A stretch of 64,000 bases of DNA. Origin: Hyphomonadaceae bacterium. Its GTDB lineage: Bacteria; Pseudomonadota; Alphaproteobacteria; Caulobacterales; Aquidulcibacteraceae. The DNA lies in assembly GCA_016791385.1 (NCBI GenBank), contig JAEUMR010000027.1:1-64000 (forward strand). Direction: 5' to 3'. This document shows, one piece after another, positions 333 through 10,198 of this stretch; the stretch's first letter is position 1, and every line of letters starts with the position of its first letter. The position numbers and the translations under genes are program-made. The notes beneath the pieces were generated by a model that had not been told where the DNA came from, ran no database searches, and saw nothing but the letters and a program-made list of their open reading frames with translations.

Positions 333-2204
333 CTACTGGCACGCGAGACATTCTTCGTAGTCGGTCTTTTCCGTCATCTGCATCGGCGCTTCGGCCTCGG
401 TTTTCGTTTCTTCACCGGCGAAGCCCGCGCGCTGCACGCTCTTGGAGCGGCAATAATAGAGGCTCTTCATGCCGCGCTCCCACGCCATCCAGTGCAGCAT
501 GTGCAGATCCCATTTATCGACATCGCCCGGCAGGAAGATGTTGAGCGATTGCGATTGGCAGATCAGCGGCGTGCGGTCGGCGGCGAGTTCGACGATCCAG
601 CGCTGATCGATTTCGAACGCGGTCTTGAACACCGCCTTCTCATCGTCGCTGAGGAAGTCGAGGTGCTGCACCGAGCCTTCGTTCTTCAGGATCGAAGACC
701 AGACGCTCTCGGTGTTCTTGCCCTTCTCTTCGAGCACTTGCTCGAGATAGGGGTTCTTCACCGCGAACGAACCGGACAGCGTCTTATGCGTGTAGATGTT
801 GGCCGGGATCGGCTCGACACCGGCGGAGGTGCCCCCGCAGATGATCGAGATCGAGGCCGTCGGCGCGATCGCCAGTTTGTGCGAGAAGCGCGCCATCACG
901 CCTTGTTCGGCCGCGTCCGGGCAGGCGCCGCGCTCTTGCGCCAGCTTCACTGAGGCAGCGTCGGCGCCGCGGCGGATGTGACGGAAGATGCGGTTGTTCC
1001 ACACCTTCGCCATCGCCGACTCGATCGGCACGCCTTGCTTTTGCAGGAAGGAGTGGAAGCCCATCAGCCCAAGGCCCACTGAACGCTCTCGCATGGCGGC
1101 GTAGATCGCCCGTTCCATTTCCGGCGGCGCACGCTCGATGAAGTCCTGCAGCACGTTGTCGAGGAAGCGGAACACGTCTTCGAGGAAGTCCGGCTCCTTT
1201 TCCCACTGATCGAACGTTTCGGCGTTGAGCGAGGAGAGACAGCACACGGCGGTGCGCTCGCGCCCGTTATGATCCATGCCGGTGTGCAGCATGATCTCCG
1301 AGCACAGGTTCGACTGGCGCACCTTCAGGCCGAGCTTCTTCTGGTGGCTCGGCATCGCCTTGTTCACGGTGTCGGAGAAGATGATGTAGGGCTCGCCGGT
1401 TTGCAGGCGCAGCTCGATGATCTTCTGCCACAGCTTGCGCGCGTTCACGTGCTTGAGCGGCTCTTGGTTCTTCGGCGAGCGCAGCGCGAACGGCAGATCA
1501 TCGCGCACCGCGATCATGAATTCGTCGGTGATGTTGATGCCGTGGTGGAGGTTGAGGCTTTTGCGGTTGAAATCGCCTGCCGCCTTCCGGATTTCGAGGA
1601 ATTCCTCAATCTCGGGGTGATGCACGTCGAGATAGACAGCCGCAGAGCCGCGGCGCAGCGAACCTTGGCTGATCGCCAGCGTCAGCGAGTCCATCACGCG
1701 GATGAACGGAATGATGCCGGAGGTTTGCCCGTTCTGGCCGACCTTTTCGCCAATGGAACGGACGCCGCCCCAATAGGTGCCGATGCCGCCGCCATTGGAG
1801 GCGAGCCACACGTTCTCGTTCCAGGTGTCCATGATGCCGTCGAGTGAATCGCCGACGGCGTTGAGGAAGCACGAGATCGGCAGACCGCGCTCGGCGCCGC
1901 CGTTCGACAGCACCGGCGTCGCCGGCATGAACCAGAGCTTGGAGATGTAGTCATAGATGCGCTGCGCGTGGCCGATGTCATCGGCGAACGCGGTGGCGAC
2001 GCGCGCGAACATGTCCTGATAGGACTCGCCGGGAAGCAGGTAGCGATCGGTCAGCGTTGTCTTGCCGAACTCCGTCAGCAACGCGTCGCGGCTCGGGTCC
2101 GTAACGACCTTGTCGACCACCTTCAGCGGACGCAGAGGTTTAGGCTTGCCGCGATGGACCTCGCCCATCCGGTGAACCCCCGCTTTTTCCGCGCGTGCCT
2201 GCAT
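333..2204 (-). CDS. nrdA: Ribonucleoside-diphosphate reductase, class I alpha (large) subunit
   Basis: Reduces ribonucleoside diphosphates to deoxynucleotides in the cytosol, the committed step of dNTP supply. The 623-residue protein carries the redox Cys at about 112 (SCF), the active-site NLCSE loop at 299-303 with the thiyl Cys301 and Glu303, the second redox Cys at 321/322, the tyrosine pair of the radical path (YYCRS, near the end) and a C-terminal CLAC swinging-arm pair at 619-622. There is no N-terminal ATP-cone of about 90 residues, so overall activity control by dATP at that site is probably absent. The small subunit nrdB is not in the window. Two NrdR-box-like sites lie 53-99 bases upstream, and a terminator follows. 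Confidence 0.95.
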   Translation of the reverse strand: MQARAEKAGVHRMGEVHRGKPKPLRPLKVVDKVVTDPSRDALLTEFGKTTLTDRYLLPGESYQDMFARVATAFADDIGHAQRIYDYISKLWFMPATPVLSNGGAERGLPISCFLNAVGDSLDGIMDTWNENVWLASNGGGIGTYWGGVRSIGEKVGQNGQTSGIIPFIRVMDSLTLAISQGSLRRGSAAVYLDVHHPEIEEFLEIRKAAGDFNRKSLNLHHGINITDEFMIAVRDDLPFALRSPKNQEPLKHVNARKLWQKIIELRLQTGEPYIIFSDTVNKAMPSHQKKLGLKVRQSNLCSEIMLHTGMDHNGRERTAVCCLSSLNAETFDQWEKEPDFLEDVFRFLDNVLQDFIERAPPEMERAIYAAMRERSVGLGLMGFHSFLQKQGVPIESAMAKVWNNRIFRHIRRGADAASVKLAQERGACPDAAEQGVMARFSHKLAIAPTASISIICGGTSAGVEPIPANIYTHKTLSGSFAVKNPYLEQVLEEKGKNTESVWSSILKNEGSVQHLDFLSDDEKAVFKTAFEIDQRWIVELAADRTPLICQSQSLNIFLPGDVDKWDLHMLHWMAWERGMKSLYYCRSKSVQRAGFAGEETKTEAEAPMQMTEKTDYEECLACQ

Positions 2205-5758: not shown

Positions 5759-6420
5759 TCGAACTCACTGACATCTGGATGAAGGTGAACGATCCATTTG
5801 GACAAAGCGTGCCTTGCCGGAAGTCCCATCACATGAAAGGCGACTTGATAGGCAGCCTCCCATTCGCGCGCGCGGTGTGGCCCGCCCATATCTTTGTCGC
5901 CGACAAAATTCACAAGGACGAGCCAAGCCGGCAACCCCGCGCTGCGTAAGAACCACAGATGCGCCAAGCGGTTTGCGAGTTGGAAGAACACCTCGCTCCA
6001 AGGTGCTCTTGGTGCAGCGCCGAGCGCCTCTGCTGTGGCACGCAAGGCGATATTGATCCGTTCTCGCGATGTTTCCCTCGCTTGCGTGGCTGGCGACAGC
6101 ATTTCTGCAATGTGCGCCTTCGCTTCAATGAGCAGGATGTCGTTGCGGTCCGAGACGGCCAGCGCATCCCATTGCGGGCCGCGCTGGGGCCAGAACTCGG
6201 CGAGGCTTGCAACGACGTCGCCCGCGCCCACAAGTGTTAGAAATGAAGCGTCACGATACTCAGCGAACTGGTCGGCGGCGAGCGGCGAGCGCCACTCCAC
6301 TGCGCGTGCGCCTGTGGCTTCAATAAGCGGCGCGTCAAGAACCTCTGGCCGCTCGTTCACCGCACGTTGAATCCACTTAAGGCTACCGCGTGTGCCGGCG
6401 GGTTGGACAATTCGGCTCAT
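5755..6420 (-). CDS. PD-(D/E)XK nuclease-fold hypothetical protein
   Basis: 221 residues, not recognised as a named family. A restriction-endonuclease-like core is visible: WDALA with Asp85, then a hydrophobic strand ending in IEAKAH (Glu99-x-Lys101), the D…ExK spacing of PD-(D/E)XK proteins. A second conserved-looking patch is FFQLANRLAHLWFL (about 145-158), followed by WLVLVNFVGDKDMGG. There is no helicase, methylase or DNA-binding domain. The gene overlaps ecm and the GNAT gene by ATGA on either side, so it is embedded in a metabolic operon rather than a defence island. Nuclease activity is inferred only from the motif; similar stand-alone proteins are common orphans. Confidence 0.6.
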   Translation of the reverse strand: MSRIVQPAGTRGSLKWIQRAVNERPEVLDAPLIEATGARAVEWRSPLAADQFAEYRDASFLTLVGAGDVVASLAEFWPQRGPQWDALAVSDRNDILLIEAKAHIAEMLSPATQARETSRERINIALRATAEALGAAPRAPWSEVFFQLANRLAHLWFLRSAGLPAWLVLVNFVGDKDMGGPHRAREWEAAYQVAFHVMGLPARHALSKWIVHLHPDVSEFD

Positions 6421-8384
6421 GTCCGCGCGGCGACGAGTTTCACGACGTCGGCCATGATGCCGGTGATTTTGAAGTCTTTCGGCGTGTAAACGCCGGCGAC
6501 GCCCATTTGCCGCAAAGCCAATGCGTCGGGCGGGGGAATGATGCCGCCGACGACGAGCGGTACGTTTTCCAGCCCCTCGGCGCGCATCAGGCGCACCACT
6601 TCCTGCACCAGATCGAGGTGCGAGCCGGAGAGGATTGACAGGCCGACAGCGTGCGCCTTCTTCTCCTTCGCGGCGGCGACAATCTCGGCCGGCGTCAAGC
6701 GAATGCCTTCATAGATGGCGTCCATGCCGACCGCGCGTGCGCGTGCTGCGATCTGCTCGGCGCCGTTGGAATGGCCGTCGAGGCCCGGCTTGCCGACCAG
6801 GAAGGTGAGCTGGCGGCCTAGCCTTTCGCTCAGCGCTTCGACGTCGCGCTTCACTGCATCGACGTCTTCGCCGCTGCTTTCGATCACGAGCGCAACGCCA
6901 GTGGGGCCGCGATATTCGCCATAGACCTTGCGCAGGGTTGCCGCCCACTCGCCGGTGGTGACGCCGGCTTTGGCTGCGGCCAGCGAAGCCGGCATGATGT
7001 TGGCGTCGGCGCGGGCGTCGGCTTCCAGCTGCGCCAGTGCGGTCTCGACGGCGCCCTTGTCGCGCGCGCTGCGCCACGCCTTCAGCCGTGCTATCTGCTC
7101 GGCTTCGACAGCGAGATCGACGGTCTGAATATTCTTCTCGCCGGCTTCGAGCGGCGAGGGTTCGGCTTCGATGTAGGCGTTGACGCCGATCACCTTCTGC
7201 GCGCCGCTTTCGATCTGCTCGACCCGGCGGCGGTTGGATTCCACCAGCGCCGCCTTCATGTGTTCCAGTGCAGCAGCTGCGCCGCCCAGGCGCTCGATGC
7301 ACTTCAGTTCCGCGCGCGCGCCCTCGATCAGTTGCGCCACCTTGGCGCCGATGACCTTCGAGCCGTCGAAGATGTCTTCGTATTCGAGCAGGTCGGTCTC
7401 ATAGGCGAGAATTTGCTGCATGCGCAGTGACCATTGCTGGTCCCAGGGCCGCGGCAGGCCGAGCGCCTCGTTCCAGGCCGGCAGCTGCACCGCGCGCGCA
7501 CGCGCGTCCTTGGACAGCGTGACGGCGAGCGTTTCGAGCAGAATGCGGTAGACGTTGTTTTCCGCCTGTTGCTCGGTAAGGCCGAGCGAATTGACCTGCA
7601 CGCCATAGCGGAAGCGGCGCGCCTTCTCGTCGTCGACGCCATAGCGCTCGCGGCCGATTTCGTCCCACAGCGTCACGAACGCGCGCATCTTGCTGAGCTC
7701 GGTGACGAAGCGCAGGCCCGCGTTGACGAAGAAGGAGATGCGGCTGAACACGAGCGCGAAGCGCTCGGGCGCCACTTCGCCGCGCGCTTTCACCTCATCA
7801 AGCACGGCGATTGCTGCGGCAAGCGCGAAGGCGAGTTCCTGTTCCGGCGTCGCGCCAGCTTCCTGCAGGTGATAGGAGCACACGTTCATCGGATTCCACT
7901 TCGGAATCGTGTCGAGGCTCCAGGCGATGGTGTCGGCGGTGAGCTTCAGGCTCGGCGCGGGCGGGAAGATGTAGGTGCCGCGCGAGAGATATTCCTTGAG
8001 GATGTCGTTCTGCGTCGTGCCGGTGAGCTTCTTCGGGTCGGCGCCTTGCTCCTGCGCGAGCGATACATAGAGCGCCAGCAGCCAGGCCGCCGGCGCATTG
8101 ATCGTCATCGAGGTGTTCATCTGTTCGAGCGGAATGCCGTCGAACAGCGCGCGCATGTCGCCGAGATGGCCAACGGGCACGCCGACCTTGCCGACCTCGC
8201 CGCGCGCCAGGATGTGGTCGCTGTCGTAGCCGGTCTGGGTTGGCAGATCGAACGCCACCGAAAGGCCGGTTTGCCCCTTGGCCAGATTGGCCCGGTAGAG
8301 CTTGTTCGACTCCGCAGGCGTCGAGTGGCCGGCATAGGTGCGGAAGATCCAGGCCGGATCGGGGGCGTGTTGGAATGCGTTCAT
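6417..8384 (-). CDS. ecm: Ethylmalonyl-CoA mutase, coenzyme B12-dependent
   Basis: Converts (2R)-ethylmalonyl-CoA to methylsuccinyl-CoA in the ethylmalonyl-CoA pathway for acetyl-CoA assimilation. The 655-residue protein starts with the substrate-binding mutase barrel (FRTYAGHSTPAESN, then DLPTQTGYDSD) and ends with a cobalamin-binding domain whose DGHSNG motif (about 536-541) supplies the lower-ligand histidine. The single-chain size (about 650) and GKPGLDGHSNGAEQIA distinguish Ecm/MeaA from the longer methylmalonyl-CoA mutase. I chose ATG 8384; a GTG at 8417 is in frame but would place the start within a conserved regulatory motif. Its pathway partner ccr lies 0.5 kb away in divergent orientation. 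Confidence 0.9.
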   Translation of the reverse strand: MNAFQHAPDPAWIFRTYAGHSTPAESNKLYRANLAKGQTGLSVAFDLPTQTGYDSDHILARGEVGKVGVPVGHLGDMRALFDGIPLEQMNTSMTINAPAAWLLALYVSLAQEQGADPKKLTGTTQNDILKEYLSRGTYIFPPAPSLKLTADTIAWSLDTIPKWNPMNVCSYHLQEAGATPEQELAFALAAAIAVLDEVKARGEVAPERFALVFSRISFFVNAGLRFVTELSKMRAFVTLWDEIGRERYGVDDEKARRFRYGVQVNSLGLTEQQAENNVYRILLETLAVTLSKDARARAVQLPAWNEALGLPRPWDQQWSLRMQQILAYETDLLEYEDIFDGSKVIGAKVAQLIEGARAELKCIERLGGAAAALEHMKAALVESNRRRVEQIESGAQKVIGVNAYIEAEPSPLEAGEKNIQTVDLAVEAEQIARLKAWRSARDKGAVETALAQLEADARADANIMPASLAAAKAGVTTGEWAATLRKVYGEYRGPTGVALVIESSGEDVDAVKRDVEALSERLGRQLTFLVGKPGLDGHSNGAEQIAARARAVGMDAIYEGIRLTPAEIVAAAKEKKAHAVGLSILSGSHLDLVQEVVRLMRAEGLENVPLVVGGIIPPPDALALRQMGVAGVYTPKDFKITGIMADVVKLVAART

Positions 8385-8408
8385 CGTCGCGCCACCGAAC
8401 AGCACTTC

Positions 8409-8421
8409 ATGCTGCACTGCA
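8409..8421 (-). promoter_or_regulatory. TGC-rich operator candidate before ecm (PhaR/AniA-like)
   Basis: Read toward ecm, this is TGCAGTGCAGCAT, 24 bases before the ecm ATG. The ccr gene has TGCATTGCAGCAT in the same orientation 19 bases before its ATG. On the other strand both contain CTGCN3GCA, one base short of the CTGCN3GCAG pattern reported for PhaR-type regulators of alphaproteobacteria. Confidence 0.5.
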
Positions 8422-8456
8422 AGAAGGAGCTGCCCGGAAGCGCGACGGGAAGGCGT

Positions 8457-8720
8457 CTAGCTCGCCCGGCGCACGAGCCCGAGCAGGAGAAGAAGGATCA
8501 CGGCGCCGATCGTCGCGTAGACGATAGAGGTGATGATCGGGTTGCCGAGGCTAAATCCGACGCCGAGCGTGGGCAGCAGCCAGCCGGCGAGGAATGCTCC
8601 GACGACGCCGACGGCCATGTTGCCCACAAGGCCGAGGCCGAAGCCCTTGACGATCACGCCAGCGAGCCAACCGGCGATCAGGCCAATGATGAGAAGGATC
8701 AAGAGCGACTGCAGGTCCAT
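8457..8720 (-). CDS. GlsB/YeaQ/YmgE-family stress-response membrane protein
   Basis: An 87-residue, very hydrophobic protein with three membrane segments and the glycine-rich pattern IIGLIAGWLAGVIVKGFGLG and NMAVGVVGAFLAGWLL that defines the GlsB/YeaQ/YmgE (transglycosylase-associated) family. Members are often stress-induced inner-membrane proteins of unknown biochemical role. The ATG at 8720 is preceded by TGGAGGGTTCGC, a good ribosome-binding site. It is read in the same direction as ecm, 72 bases upstream of it, and is divergent from ccr, so it may share an intergenic control region with ccr. Confidence 0.85.
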   Translation of the reverse strand: MDLQSLLILLIIGLIAGWLAGVIVKGFGLGLVGNMAVGVVGAFLAGWLLPTLGVGFSLGNPIITSIVYATIGAVILLLLLGLVRRAS

Positions 8721-8764
8721 GCGAACCCTCCATGCGCTGGGCGCAGCCCGGATCGAGCCGCGCT

Positions 8765-8779
8765 GTTATCGTAACGTTA
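8765..8779. promoter_or_regulatory. Overlapping short palindromes between GlsB and ccr
   Basis: The sequence gttatcgtaacgtta contains GTTA-TCG-TAAC (8765-8775) and TAACGTTA (8772-8779), two overlapping perfect palindromes in an otherwise GC-rich 206-bp divergent region. They sit 45 bases before the GlsB start. Operator function is a guess from symmetry and position alone. Confidence 0.3.
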
Positions 8780-8894
8780 GCAGAGATCTTCGCGGCATGC
8801 GCGATGCTGAACTGCGGCGTGTGCATCGCGGGTGGAGATGAGGCCTGGCTCACCCACGGTGACGCCATTGACGAGGACCAGATTGCTGGCATTG

Positions 8895-8907
8895 TGCATT
8901 GCAGCAT
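8895..8907 (+). promoter_or_regulatory. TGC-rich operator candidate before ccr (PhaR/AniA-like)
   Basis: TGCATTGCAGCAT, 19 bases before the ccr ATG, differs by one base from the site before ecm. Matching sequence, orientation and distance at two genes of one pathway suggest a shared regulator acting near the transcription start. Confidence 0.5.
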
Positions 8908-8926
8908 AAATCAAGGCGAGGGAGCC

Positions 8927-10198
8927 ATGGCTCAGGCCAACCTGAAGTCCGTGAAGGACATTTACGCGATTGGCGAGATTCCGCCGCTGTACCACGTGCC
9001 GAAAATGATGTGGGCCTGGGCCATCCGTAAAGAGCGGCATGGCCGGCCGCTGAAGGCGATGCAGCTGGAGCAGGTGCCGGTGCCGGAAGTCGGCGAGGAC
9101 GAGGCGCTGGTGCTCGTGATGGCTGCGGGCGTGAATTACAACGGTGTGTGGGCGGCGCTGGGCGAGCCGATGAGCGTGCTCGATGTGCACAAGCAGCCCT
9201 ATCACGTGGCGGGCTCGGACGCAGCGGGCATCGTCTGGGCAGTTGGTTCCAAAGTGAAGCGTTGGAAGCCGGGCGATGAAGTCGTCATCCACTGCAATCA
9301 AGACGATGGCGACGACGAAGAATGCAATGGCGGCGACCCGATGTTCTCGCCGAGCCAGCGCATTTGGGGCTACGAAACCACCGACGGTTCGTTCGCGCAG
9401 TTCTGCAAGGTGCAGGCGCGGCAGATGATGCCGCGGCCCCAGCACCTCACTTGGGAAGAGAGCGCGTGCTACACGCTCACGCTCGCGACTGCCTACCGGA
9501 TGCTGTTCGGCTGGCGTCCGAACGTGCTGCGGCCCGGCCAGAACGTGCTGGTGTGGGGCGCTTCAGGCGGCCTCGGCGTGTTCGCGACGCAGCTTTGCGC
9601 AGTATCGGGCGCACACGCGATCGGTGTCGTCTCCGACGAGAGCAAGAAGGACTACGTGCTGTCGATGGGCGCGAAAGCCGTCCTAAACCGCAAGGACTTC
9701 AATTGCTGGGGGCAATTGCCGAAGGTGAACGGCCCCGAATTCGGCGATTACATGAAAGAGAGCCGCAAGTTCGGCAAAGCGATCTGGGAAATCACCGGCG
9801 GCAAAGACGTCGACATCGTGTTCGAGCACCCCGGCGAGCAGACATTCCCGGTCTCGGTGCTGGTGTGTAAGCGCGGCGGCATGGTGGTGATCTGCGCCGG
9901 CACGACGGGCTATAATCTCACCATGGATGCGCGCTTCCTGTGGATGCGGCAGAAGCGGGTGCAGGGCTCGCACTTCGCGCACCTCTATCACGCGGCTCAG
10001 GCCAACCAGCTGGTGATCGATCGCCGCATCGACCCGGCCATGAGCGAAGTGTTCCCGTGGGACAAGATCCCGGACGCACACGAGAAAATGCTCGATAACA
10101 AGCACCCGCCCGGCAACATGGCGGTGCTCGTCAACGCGCAGCGCTCGGGCCTGCGCACATGGGAAGACGTGCTGGAGAATAGCGGCGCGCGCGGCTAA
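8927..10198 (+). CDS. ccr: Crotonyl-CoA carboxylase/reductase
   Basis: Reductively carboxylates crotonyl-CoA with NADPH and CO2 to (2S)-ethylmalonyl-CoA, the key step of the ethylmalonyl-CoA pathway. The 423-residue protein is an MDR-superfamily enzyme with the CCR-specific stretches KDIYAIGEIPPLYHVPKMMW at its start, an acidic loop CNQDDGDDEECNGGDP (about 122-137), the NADPH loop WGASGGLGVFATQL and the late AHEKMLDNKHPPGNMAVLV. Length matches the family. ATG 8927 has GAGGGAG just upstream; a longer frame upstream (from 8732) has no family resemblance. It is divergent from GlsB and ecm and shares an operator-like motif with ecm. Confidence 0.95.
   Translation: MAQANLKSVKDIYAIGEIPPLYHVPKMMWAWAIRKERHGRPLKAMQLEQVPVPEVGEDEALVLVMAAGVNYNGVWAALGEPMSVLDVHKQPYHVAGSDAAGIVWAVGSKVKRWKPGDEVVIHCNQDDGDDEECNGGDPMFSPSQRIWGYETTDGSFAQFCKVQARQMMPRPQHLTWEESACYTLTLATAYRMLFGWRPNVLRPGQNVLVWGASGGLGVFATQLCAVSGAHAIGVVSDESKKDYVLSMGAKAVLNRKDFNCWGQLPKVNGPEFGDYMKESRKFGKAIWEITGGKDVDIVFEHPGEQTFPVSVLVCKRGGMVVICAGTTGYNLTMDARFLWMRQKRVQGSHFAHLYHAAQANQLVIDRRIDPAMSEVFPWDKIPDAHEKMLDNKHPPGNMAVLVNAQRSGLRTWEDVLENSGARG

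Follow-up and report, generated by a model that had tools for sequence, protein, structure and literature searches.

A conserved PhaR-type box upstream of ccr and ecm as a putative link between polymer storage and acetyl-CoA assimilation in a Hyphomonadaceae bacterium

Does one regulator join the assimilation of acetyl-CoA to polymer storage? The question is raised by a contig stretch of 64,000 nucleotides (the window) from a Hyphomonadaceae MAG of 2.65 Mb (87 contigs, 83% complete), in which two genes of the ethylmalonyl-CoA pathway are each preceded by nearly the same 13 bases. The gene at 8927..10198 (+) is ccr, encoding a crotonyl-CoA carboxylase/reductase of 423 aa, whose product reaches 639 bits with the TIGR01751 equivalog (cut-off 379) and matches PDB 4gi2 with E=1e-227. 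The adjoining gene at 6417..8384 (-), encoding 655 aa, is probably ecm, an ethylmalonyl-CoA mutase of the MeaA type; its product lies above the cut-off of TIGR00641 (acyl-CoA mutase family) and below that of the full methylmalonyl-CoA mutase model. A second mutase, 35-37% identical, occurs in 22 of 30 genomes of the genus, with none from the MAG itself among the matches listed. Between ecm and ccr lies an 87-aa ORF (8457-8720) with no NCBIfam match; the ORF predicted at this place in relative G040 is a different one. The motif reads TGCAGTGCAGCAT at 8409-8421 (-), 24 bases upstream of the ecm ATG (8384), and TGCATTGCAGCAT at 8895-8907 (+), 19 bases upstream of the ccr ATG (8927). The first-pass annotation had described the two copies as equally oriented relative to their genes, as differing by a single mismatch and as carrying CTGCN3GCA on the opposite strand, and each of these points is confirmed, positions and distances included, with 12 of 13 positions identical. 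An alternative GTG start of ecm at 8417 would put the motif within the ecm ORF, and since the box begins 28-63 bases upstream of the aligned ATG in the relatives having a box near ecm, the ATG start is favoured.

Taken alone, the window is modest evidence: TGCANTGCAGCAT has two exact matches and one match with one mismatch (488-500), for an expected number of 0.56, and 3 of 100 shuffles also reach three matches. At the scale of whole genomes, the motif had been open to the objection of random placement, and the comparison with reversed patterns shows enrichment instead, both in the MAG and in its relatives. Eight matches to TGCTGCANTGCA at seven places were counted in the MAG and none to the reversed pattern, and the sums over the 30 genus genomes are 198 and 50, respectively. 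A less strict search, for a palindrome of 15 bases with one mismatch allowed, found 96 places in the MAG vs 20 for the control, and 91 vs 31 and 112 vs 54 in two relatives; TGCRNYGCANCA, counted on both strands, gives 86 vs 19 for its control.

To identify the motif, it was compared with the palindrome WNWD2NYGCRNYGCRNH2WNW described for PhaR/AniA of S. meliloti in PMC12542648, where a table pairs sites with binding results. A symmetric matrix was built from 17 S. meliloti sites of promoters marked Efficient (PMC12542648, Table 3), exoH contributing one of its four sites and the MAG contributing no sequence. This matrix ranks the ccr site first in the window (21-bp predicted box at 8889..8909, +, core TGCATTGCA, score 23.4) and the ecm site second (8407..8427, -, core TGCAGTGCA, score 17.4), the third-best position reaching 12.4, so that the likeness to the PhaR/AniA pattern noticed at first holds when the whole window is scored. 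The training sites range from 17.8 to 29.2; the ccr site falls within this range and the ecm site slightly below it. At both sites the palindromic core YGCRNYGCR occurs as TGCANTGCA. The S. meliloti sites of mmgR and SMa1961 resemble the ccr box in having ATTGTGCA and GCAGCA in common with it, and TGCANTGCAGCAT itself recurs in two S. meliloti promoters that are bound efficiently, that of SMc03815 and, at one of its four sites, that of exoH. Judged by sequence, it is very probable that the ecm/ccr motif is a PhaR box and that both genes belong to a PhaR regulon.

The upstream regions of relatives argue in the same direction. Matches to ccr and ecm, some of them partial, were found in all 30 genus genomes, and within 250 bases upstream a score of at least 12 is reached before ccr in 29 of 30 (1.6% of dinucleotide shuffles) and before ecm in 22 of 30 (1.7% of shuffles), so that relatives retain the motif nearly always at ccr and in most cases at ecm. 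The ecm box lies inside 100 bases in 21 of the 30 genomes; the score stays below 12 in the other eight without a box in the longer region, and in three genus genomes the best ecm match is the adjoining ccr box. When the sequences are aligned on the box, the columns inside it reach up to 2.0 bits and most flanking columns stay below 0.6. These counts are not independent, because the genus genomes are related.

The wider list of genes proposed to carry the motif was only partly borne out. For phaP the expectation holds fully: the main phasin gene has a box in 28 of 28 assessable genus regions (29 loci supplied, one cut by a contig edge), with a lowest score of 19.9. It fails for phaC, with no box in 27 assessable genus regions of 29 supplied, for the mcl-like gene, with none in 8 assessable regions of 29 supplied, and for the mch-like gene (0 of 29 regions); phaR and phaA agree weakly, a score of at least 12 being found upstream of phaR in 2 of 8 and of phaA in 2 of 7 among eight family genomes, four of them from the genus. 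The mch gene was identified via PF19315 and mcl via a CitE-like match below cut-off; the upstream region of mch says little by itself because mch follows mcl in the MAG, and the phaC start is an estimate because the N-terminus of PhaC varies. Direct control of the whole ethylmalonyl-CoA pathway is therefore unsupported, the regions upstream of phaC and of the mcl-like and mch-like genes being without box. As for pantothenate synthesis, panB has a box of at least 12 in 13 of 30 genus genomes and none in the MAG, a patchy link.

The placement of the ccr box relative to the promoter bears on how it could act. A -35 element, TTGACG, is predicted at 8868..8873 (+) from the placement of TTGAC in genus genomes, and a -10 element, CATTGT, at 8890..8895 (+), within the left arm of the PhaR box, with a 16-bp spacer. 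Of 29 genus genomes, 23, the MAG included, have TTGAC 21-24 bases before the start of the ccr box, four more have it within the box, and two have none; control windows have it in 8 of 580 cases. Among the 23 genomes with upstream TTGAC, 21 have CATTGT as -10 in the left arm, although the -10 is less certain than the -35, because letters of this kind could also stem from a PhaR site's arm by itself. The ccr box thus lies over the predicted -10 (23 genomes) or -35 (4 genomes) in 27 of 29. An operator over the -10 or -35 element occupies a position typical of repressors, and as the box covers a core promoter element in both arrangements, repression by occlusion is suggested, which we infer to be the simplest mechanism at ccr. 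For ecm, no promoter could be called, and inspection of the hbd promoters by eye led to no call of a common -35.

Outside the genus, the best 80 of at least 596 named ccr loci were collected, one of which was too short. Of the remaining 79, two of them genus genomes, 60 have a box of at least 12 within 300 bases of ccr (58 of 77 outside the genus), and control windows from ccr and downstream, mostly coding DNA, have one in 15 of 961 cases. When the threshold was adjusted to the control windows, 62 of 79 ccr loci were recovered with the real matrix, vs a mean of 3.7 and a maximum of 13 with 300 column-permuted matrices. In the same named loci an ecm box was found in 42 of 64, 23 being separate and 19 identical to the box of ccr. 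In Methylobacterium, Methylorubrum and Methylocystaceae the box is mostly missing: it is present in 4 of 11 ccr regions of Methylobacterium/Methylorubrum and in none of 5 of Methylocystaceae, leaving 12 of 16 assessable regions without it. Six plasmid records were scored among 50 having a ccr relative. The ccr of a Ruegeria sp. TM1040 plasmid scores 17.7 and 15.4 and that of a Tritonibacter plasmid 15.0; no box was found at the plasmid copies of Rhizobium (8.0) and Bradyrhizobium (3.3). The box of Paracoccus denitrificans ccr is weak (10.7), and P. versutus ccr scores 7.5.

The company that the box keeps was followed in the MAG itself by scoring the pattern-found loci and their flanks. Nineteen places reach at least 13; in the stretches examined, ten of these were assigned to promoters and nine lie inside coding regions, the latter probably being chance matches. 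Besides ccr and ecm, genes with a promoter box are hbd (24.5), phaZ (18.7), thiolase (16.1) and CoA-transferase subunit A (13.2), and further boxes belong to ispDF/ntrB, to typA (21.5, 173 bases distant), to galU (18.1) and to a RegB-type kinase. Automatic calling chose longer alternative ORFs for ccr, ecm and galU, which would contain the boxes; the later starts adopted rest on relatives for ccr and ecm and on inspection by eye for galU. NCBIfam models were used to verify the gene names; scores under the curated cut-offs were obtained for ntrB and for typA and the kinase, the last two of which are truncated at the end of their locus. The box between ispDF and ntrB (locus L002, 1495-1515; G000:C37, about 81229-81249; score 23.1) has the same 13 bases as that of ccr, is also present in relative G035 (L283) and makes a link of storage to nitrogen sensing possible. 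The box preceding the ActS/PrrB/RegB-type redox kinase gene (L007, 2447-2467) scores 14.7.

In the relatives, a sample of 75 loci around exact sites was inspected, taken apart from sites in the ecm loci already collected, and in 23 of the 75 the exact site is flagged within an ORF. The genes recurring downstream are hbd and the phasin gene (at least nine each), panB and a DoxX-like gene (at least four each), pdhA, dksA and a PotD-like gene (at least three each) and an AmtB-like gene (at least two), the -like names being given by eye. The dksA boxes, found in three relatives (L106, L294, L302), hint at growth control as a further process tied to PhaR. In eight of the at least nine phasin loci (L097, L102, L108, L268, L270, L287, L293, L305) the box is common to a divergent gene, by eye a D-Ala-D-Ala carboxypeptidase. 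Phasin promoters at L313, L320, L327, L329, L331 and L338 have, by eye, a second TGC-rich half-site near TTGAC beside the main box, an arrangement resembling the paired sites of S. meliloti phaP1 and phaP2 described in PMC12542648.

A PhaR regulon requires its regulator, and in the MAG (83% complete) neither PhaR (PF07879) nor a PF09361 phasin was found; phaC is present. Within the family PF07879 was found in 37 of 41 genomes, and of the 10 genus relatives searched all 10 have it; in nine of these, phaR and ccr share a contig at a distance of about 21-50 kb. TIGR01848 is above cut-off for the PhaR of one family member. In relative G040, the gene matching window positions 333-2204 is next on the ecm side and phaR stands about 16 kb further out. 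As the window begins at the first base of its contig, phaR would, by this synteny, fall past the contig end.

Taken together, the matrix ranks, the phasin box in 28 of 28 regions and the phaZ box of the MAG support, at the level of sequence, the proposal that one regulator links acetyl-CoA assimilation to polymer storage, and a shared PhaR-type regulator is the best-supported reading. We consider it likely, with a probability of about 0.84, that the boxes are PhaR (AniA) operators at ccr and ecm, repressed without PHB and opened with granules. What computation shows here is the existence and conservation of the boxes, the set of genes sharing them, their overlap with the promoter at ccr and the presence of PhaR in relatives. 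PhaR binding, repression and PHB as the signal are inferred for this organism from the PhaR of other species. When PHB is absent, free PhaR would occupy the ccr box, over the predicted -10, and the ecm box, close upstream of the start codon, and would block transcription of both genes. When granules form, PhaR would shift to PHB and release the ccr and ecm promoters simultaneously with those of phaP, phaZ, hbd, thiolase and CoA-transferase, so that the granule would gate the entry of C4-CoA into the upper ethylmalonyl-CoA pathway, while no box was found at the lower pathway (mcl- and mch-like genes) or at phaC. A carbon-assimilation route would probably thus be opened in step with storage granules.

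Other explanations of the boxes were weighed against the same data. PhaR could activate ccr and ecm, or fine-tune them beside a main activator of the CcrR or ScfR type. In favour of this are CcrR itself, described as an activator of an ethylmalonyl-CoA pathway gene in Methylobacterium, the occurrence of the S. meliloti motif at seven PhaR-activated genes (PMC12542648), and the rise of Ccr on acetate in P. denitrificans, where a role of two ScfR regulators in the upper pathway was ruled out (PMC10370305). Against this stands the position of the ccr box, which lies on the predicted -10 or -35 element in 27 of the 29 genus genomes, and we regard activation or fine-tuning as unlikely. It is less probable still that a regulator other than PhaR, with a similar TGC-rich palindrome, binds the boxes: in its favour, phaR was not found in the MAG, and the core TGCANTGCA is short, but the gene set is PhaR's own (the phasin gene at every assessable region, and phaZ) and PhaR is encoded in all ten genus relatives searched, in nine on the very contig of ccr. 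That the 13-bp likeness is due to chance, for which the shuffles of the window alone leave some room, is contradicted by conservation, genome-wide enrichment and the matrix tests alike; it was rejected on the shuffles, reversed-pattern counts, control windows and permuted matrices, and its probability is negligible.

The reading of the boxes as PhaR operators has much in common with the PhaR/AniA regulon of S. meliloti, which shares the core YGCRNYGCR with AT-rich arms and whose targets include phasins, phaZ and panC-panB, pdh being affected (PMC12542648); these match genes boxed here or in relatives. It differs in that ccr, ecm and hbd are boxed here, and the main text of PMC12542648 contains neither ethylmalonyl nor crotonyl-CoA nor ccr as a word. 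The same source reports two motifs below threshold at S. meliloti phaR. According to a review, PhaR represses the phasin gene in P. denitrificans, Rhodobacter sphaeroides and Cupriavidus necator, and in C. necator its binding to PHB granules lifts this repression. The targets described there for the circuit of these three species are phaP and phaR, whereas here assimilation genes are included too and most of the eight family loci have no strong phaR box. PhaR has also been tied to acetyl-CoA partitioning in Methylobacterium (PMC6520949, citing Korotkova 2002), although a direct PhaR target within the ethylmalonyl-CoA pathway is given neither in the sections of PMC6520949 consulted nor in the main text of the Methylorubrum phaR-mutant transcriptome paper, in which ccr and crotonyl-CoA are absent. 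No statement that PhaR acts on ccr or ecm was found in the literature surveyed.

CcrR of Methylobacterium extorquens is reportedly, by the title of the paper on it, a TetR-family activator of the ethylmalonyl-CoA pathway, and the common ground with the present case is transcriptional control of this pathway. Even in the well-studied P. denitrificans the control of ccr looks open: besides excluding both ScfR regulators from the upper pathway, PMC10370305 calls the signal that lowers the pathway yet unknown. PhaR itself is a known regulator; the target pair, the breadth and the promoter placement look new. On a broader scale, and with slightly better than even odds in our estimation, PhaR at ccr and ecm would be an old, class-wide wiring of the Alphaproteobacteria, lost in many methylotrophs, where other regulators would have replaced it. 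At the same near-even odds, the PHB granule would be the sensor across the class, the box having moved between -10 and -35 of a single conserved promoter with occlusion being kept.

Since 3-hydroxybutyryl-CoA and crotonyl-CoA form the branch point of storage and assimilation, a conserved PhaR box at the ccr and ecm promoters is a concrete, testable link between the two, which may also be useful for strains producing PHB or products of the ethylmalonyl-CoA pathway. If the upper ethylmalonyl-CoA pathway is opened by the PHB granule acting as sensor, storage would gate acetyl-CoA assimilation.
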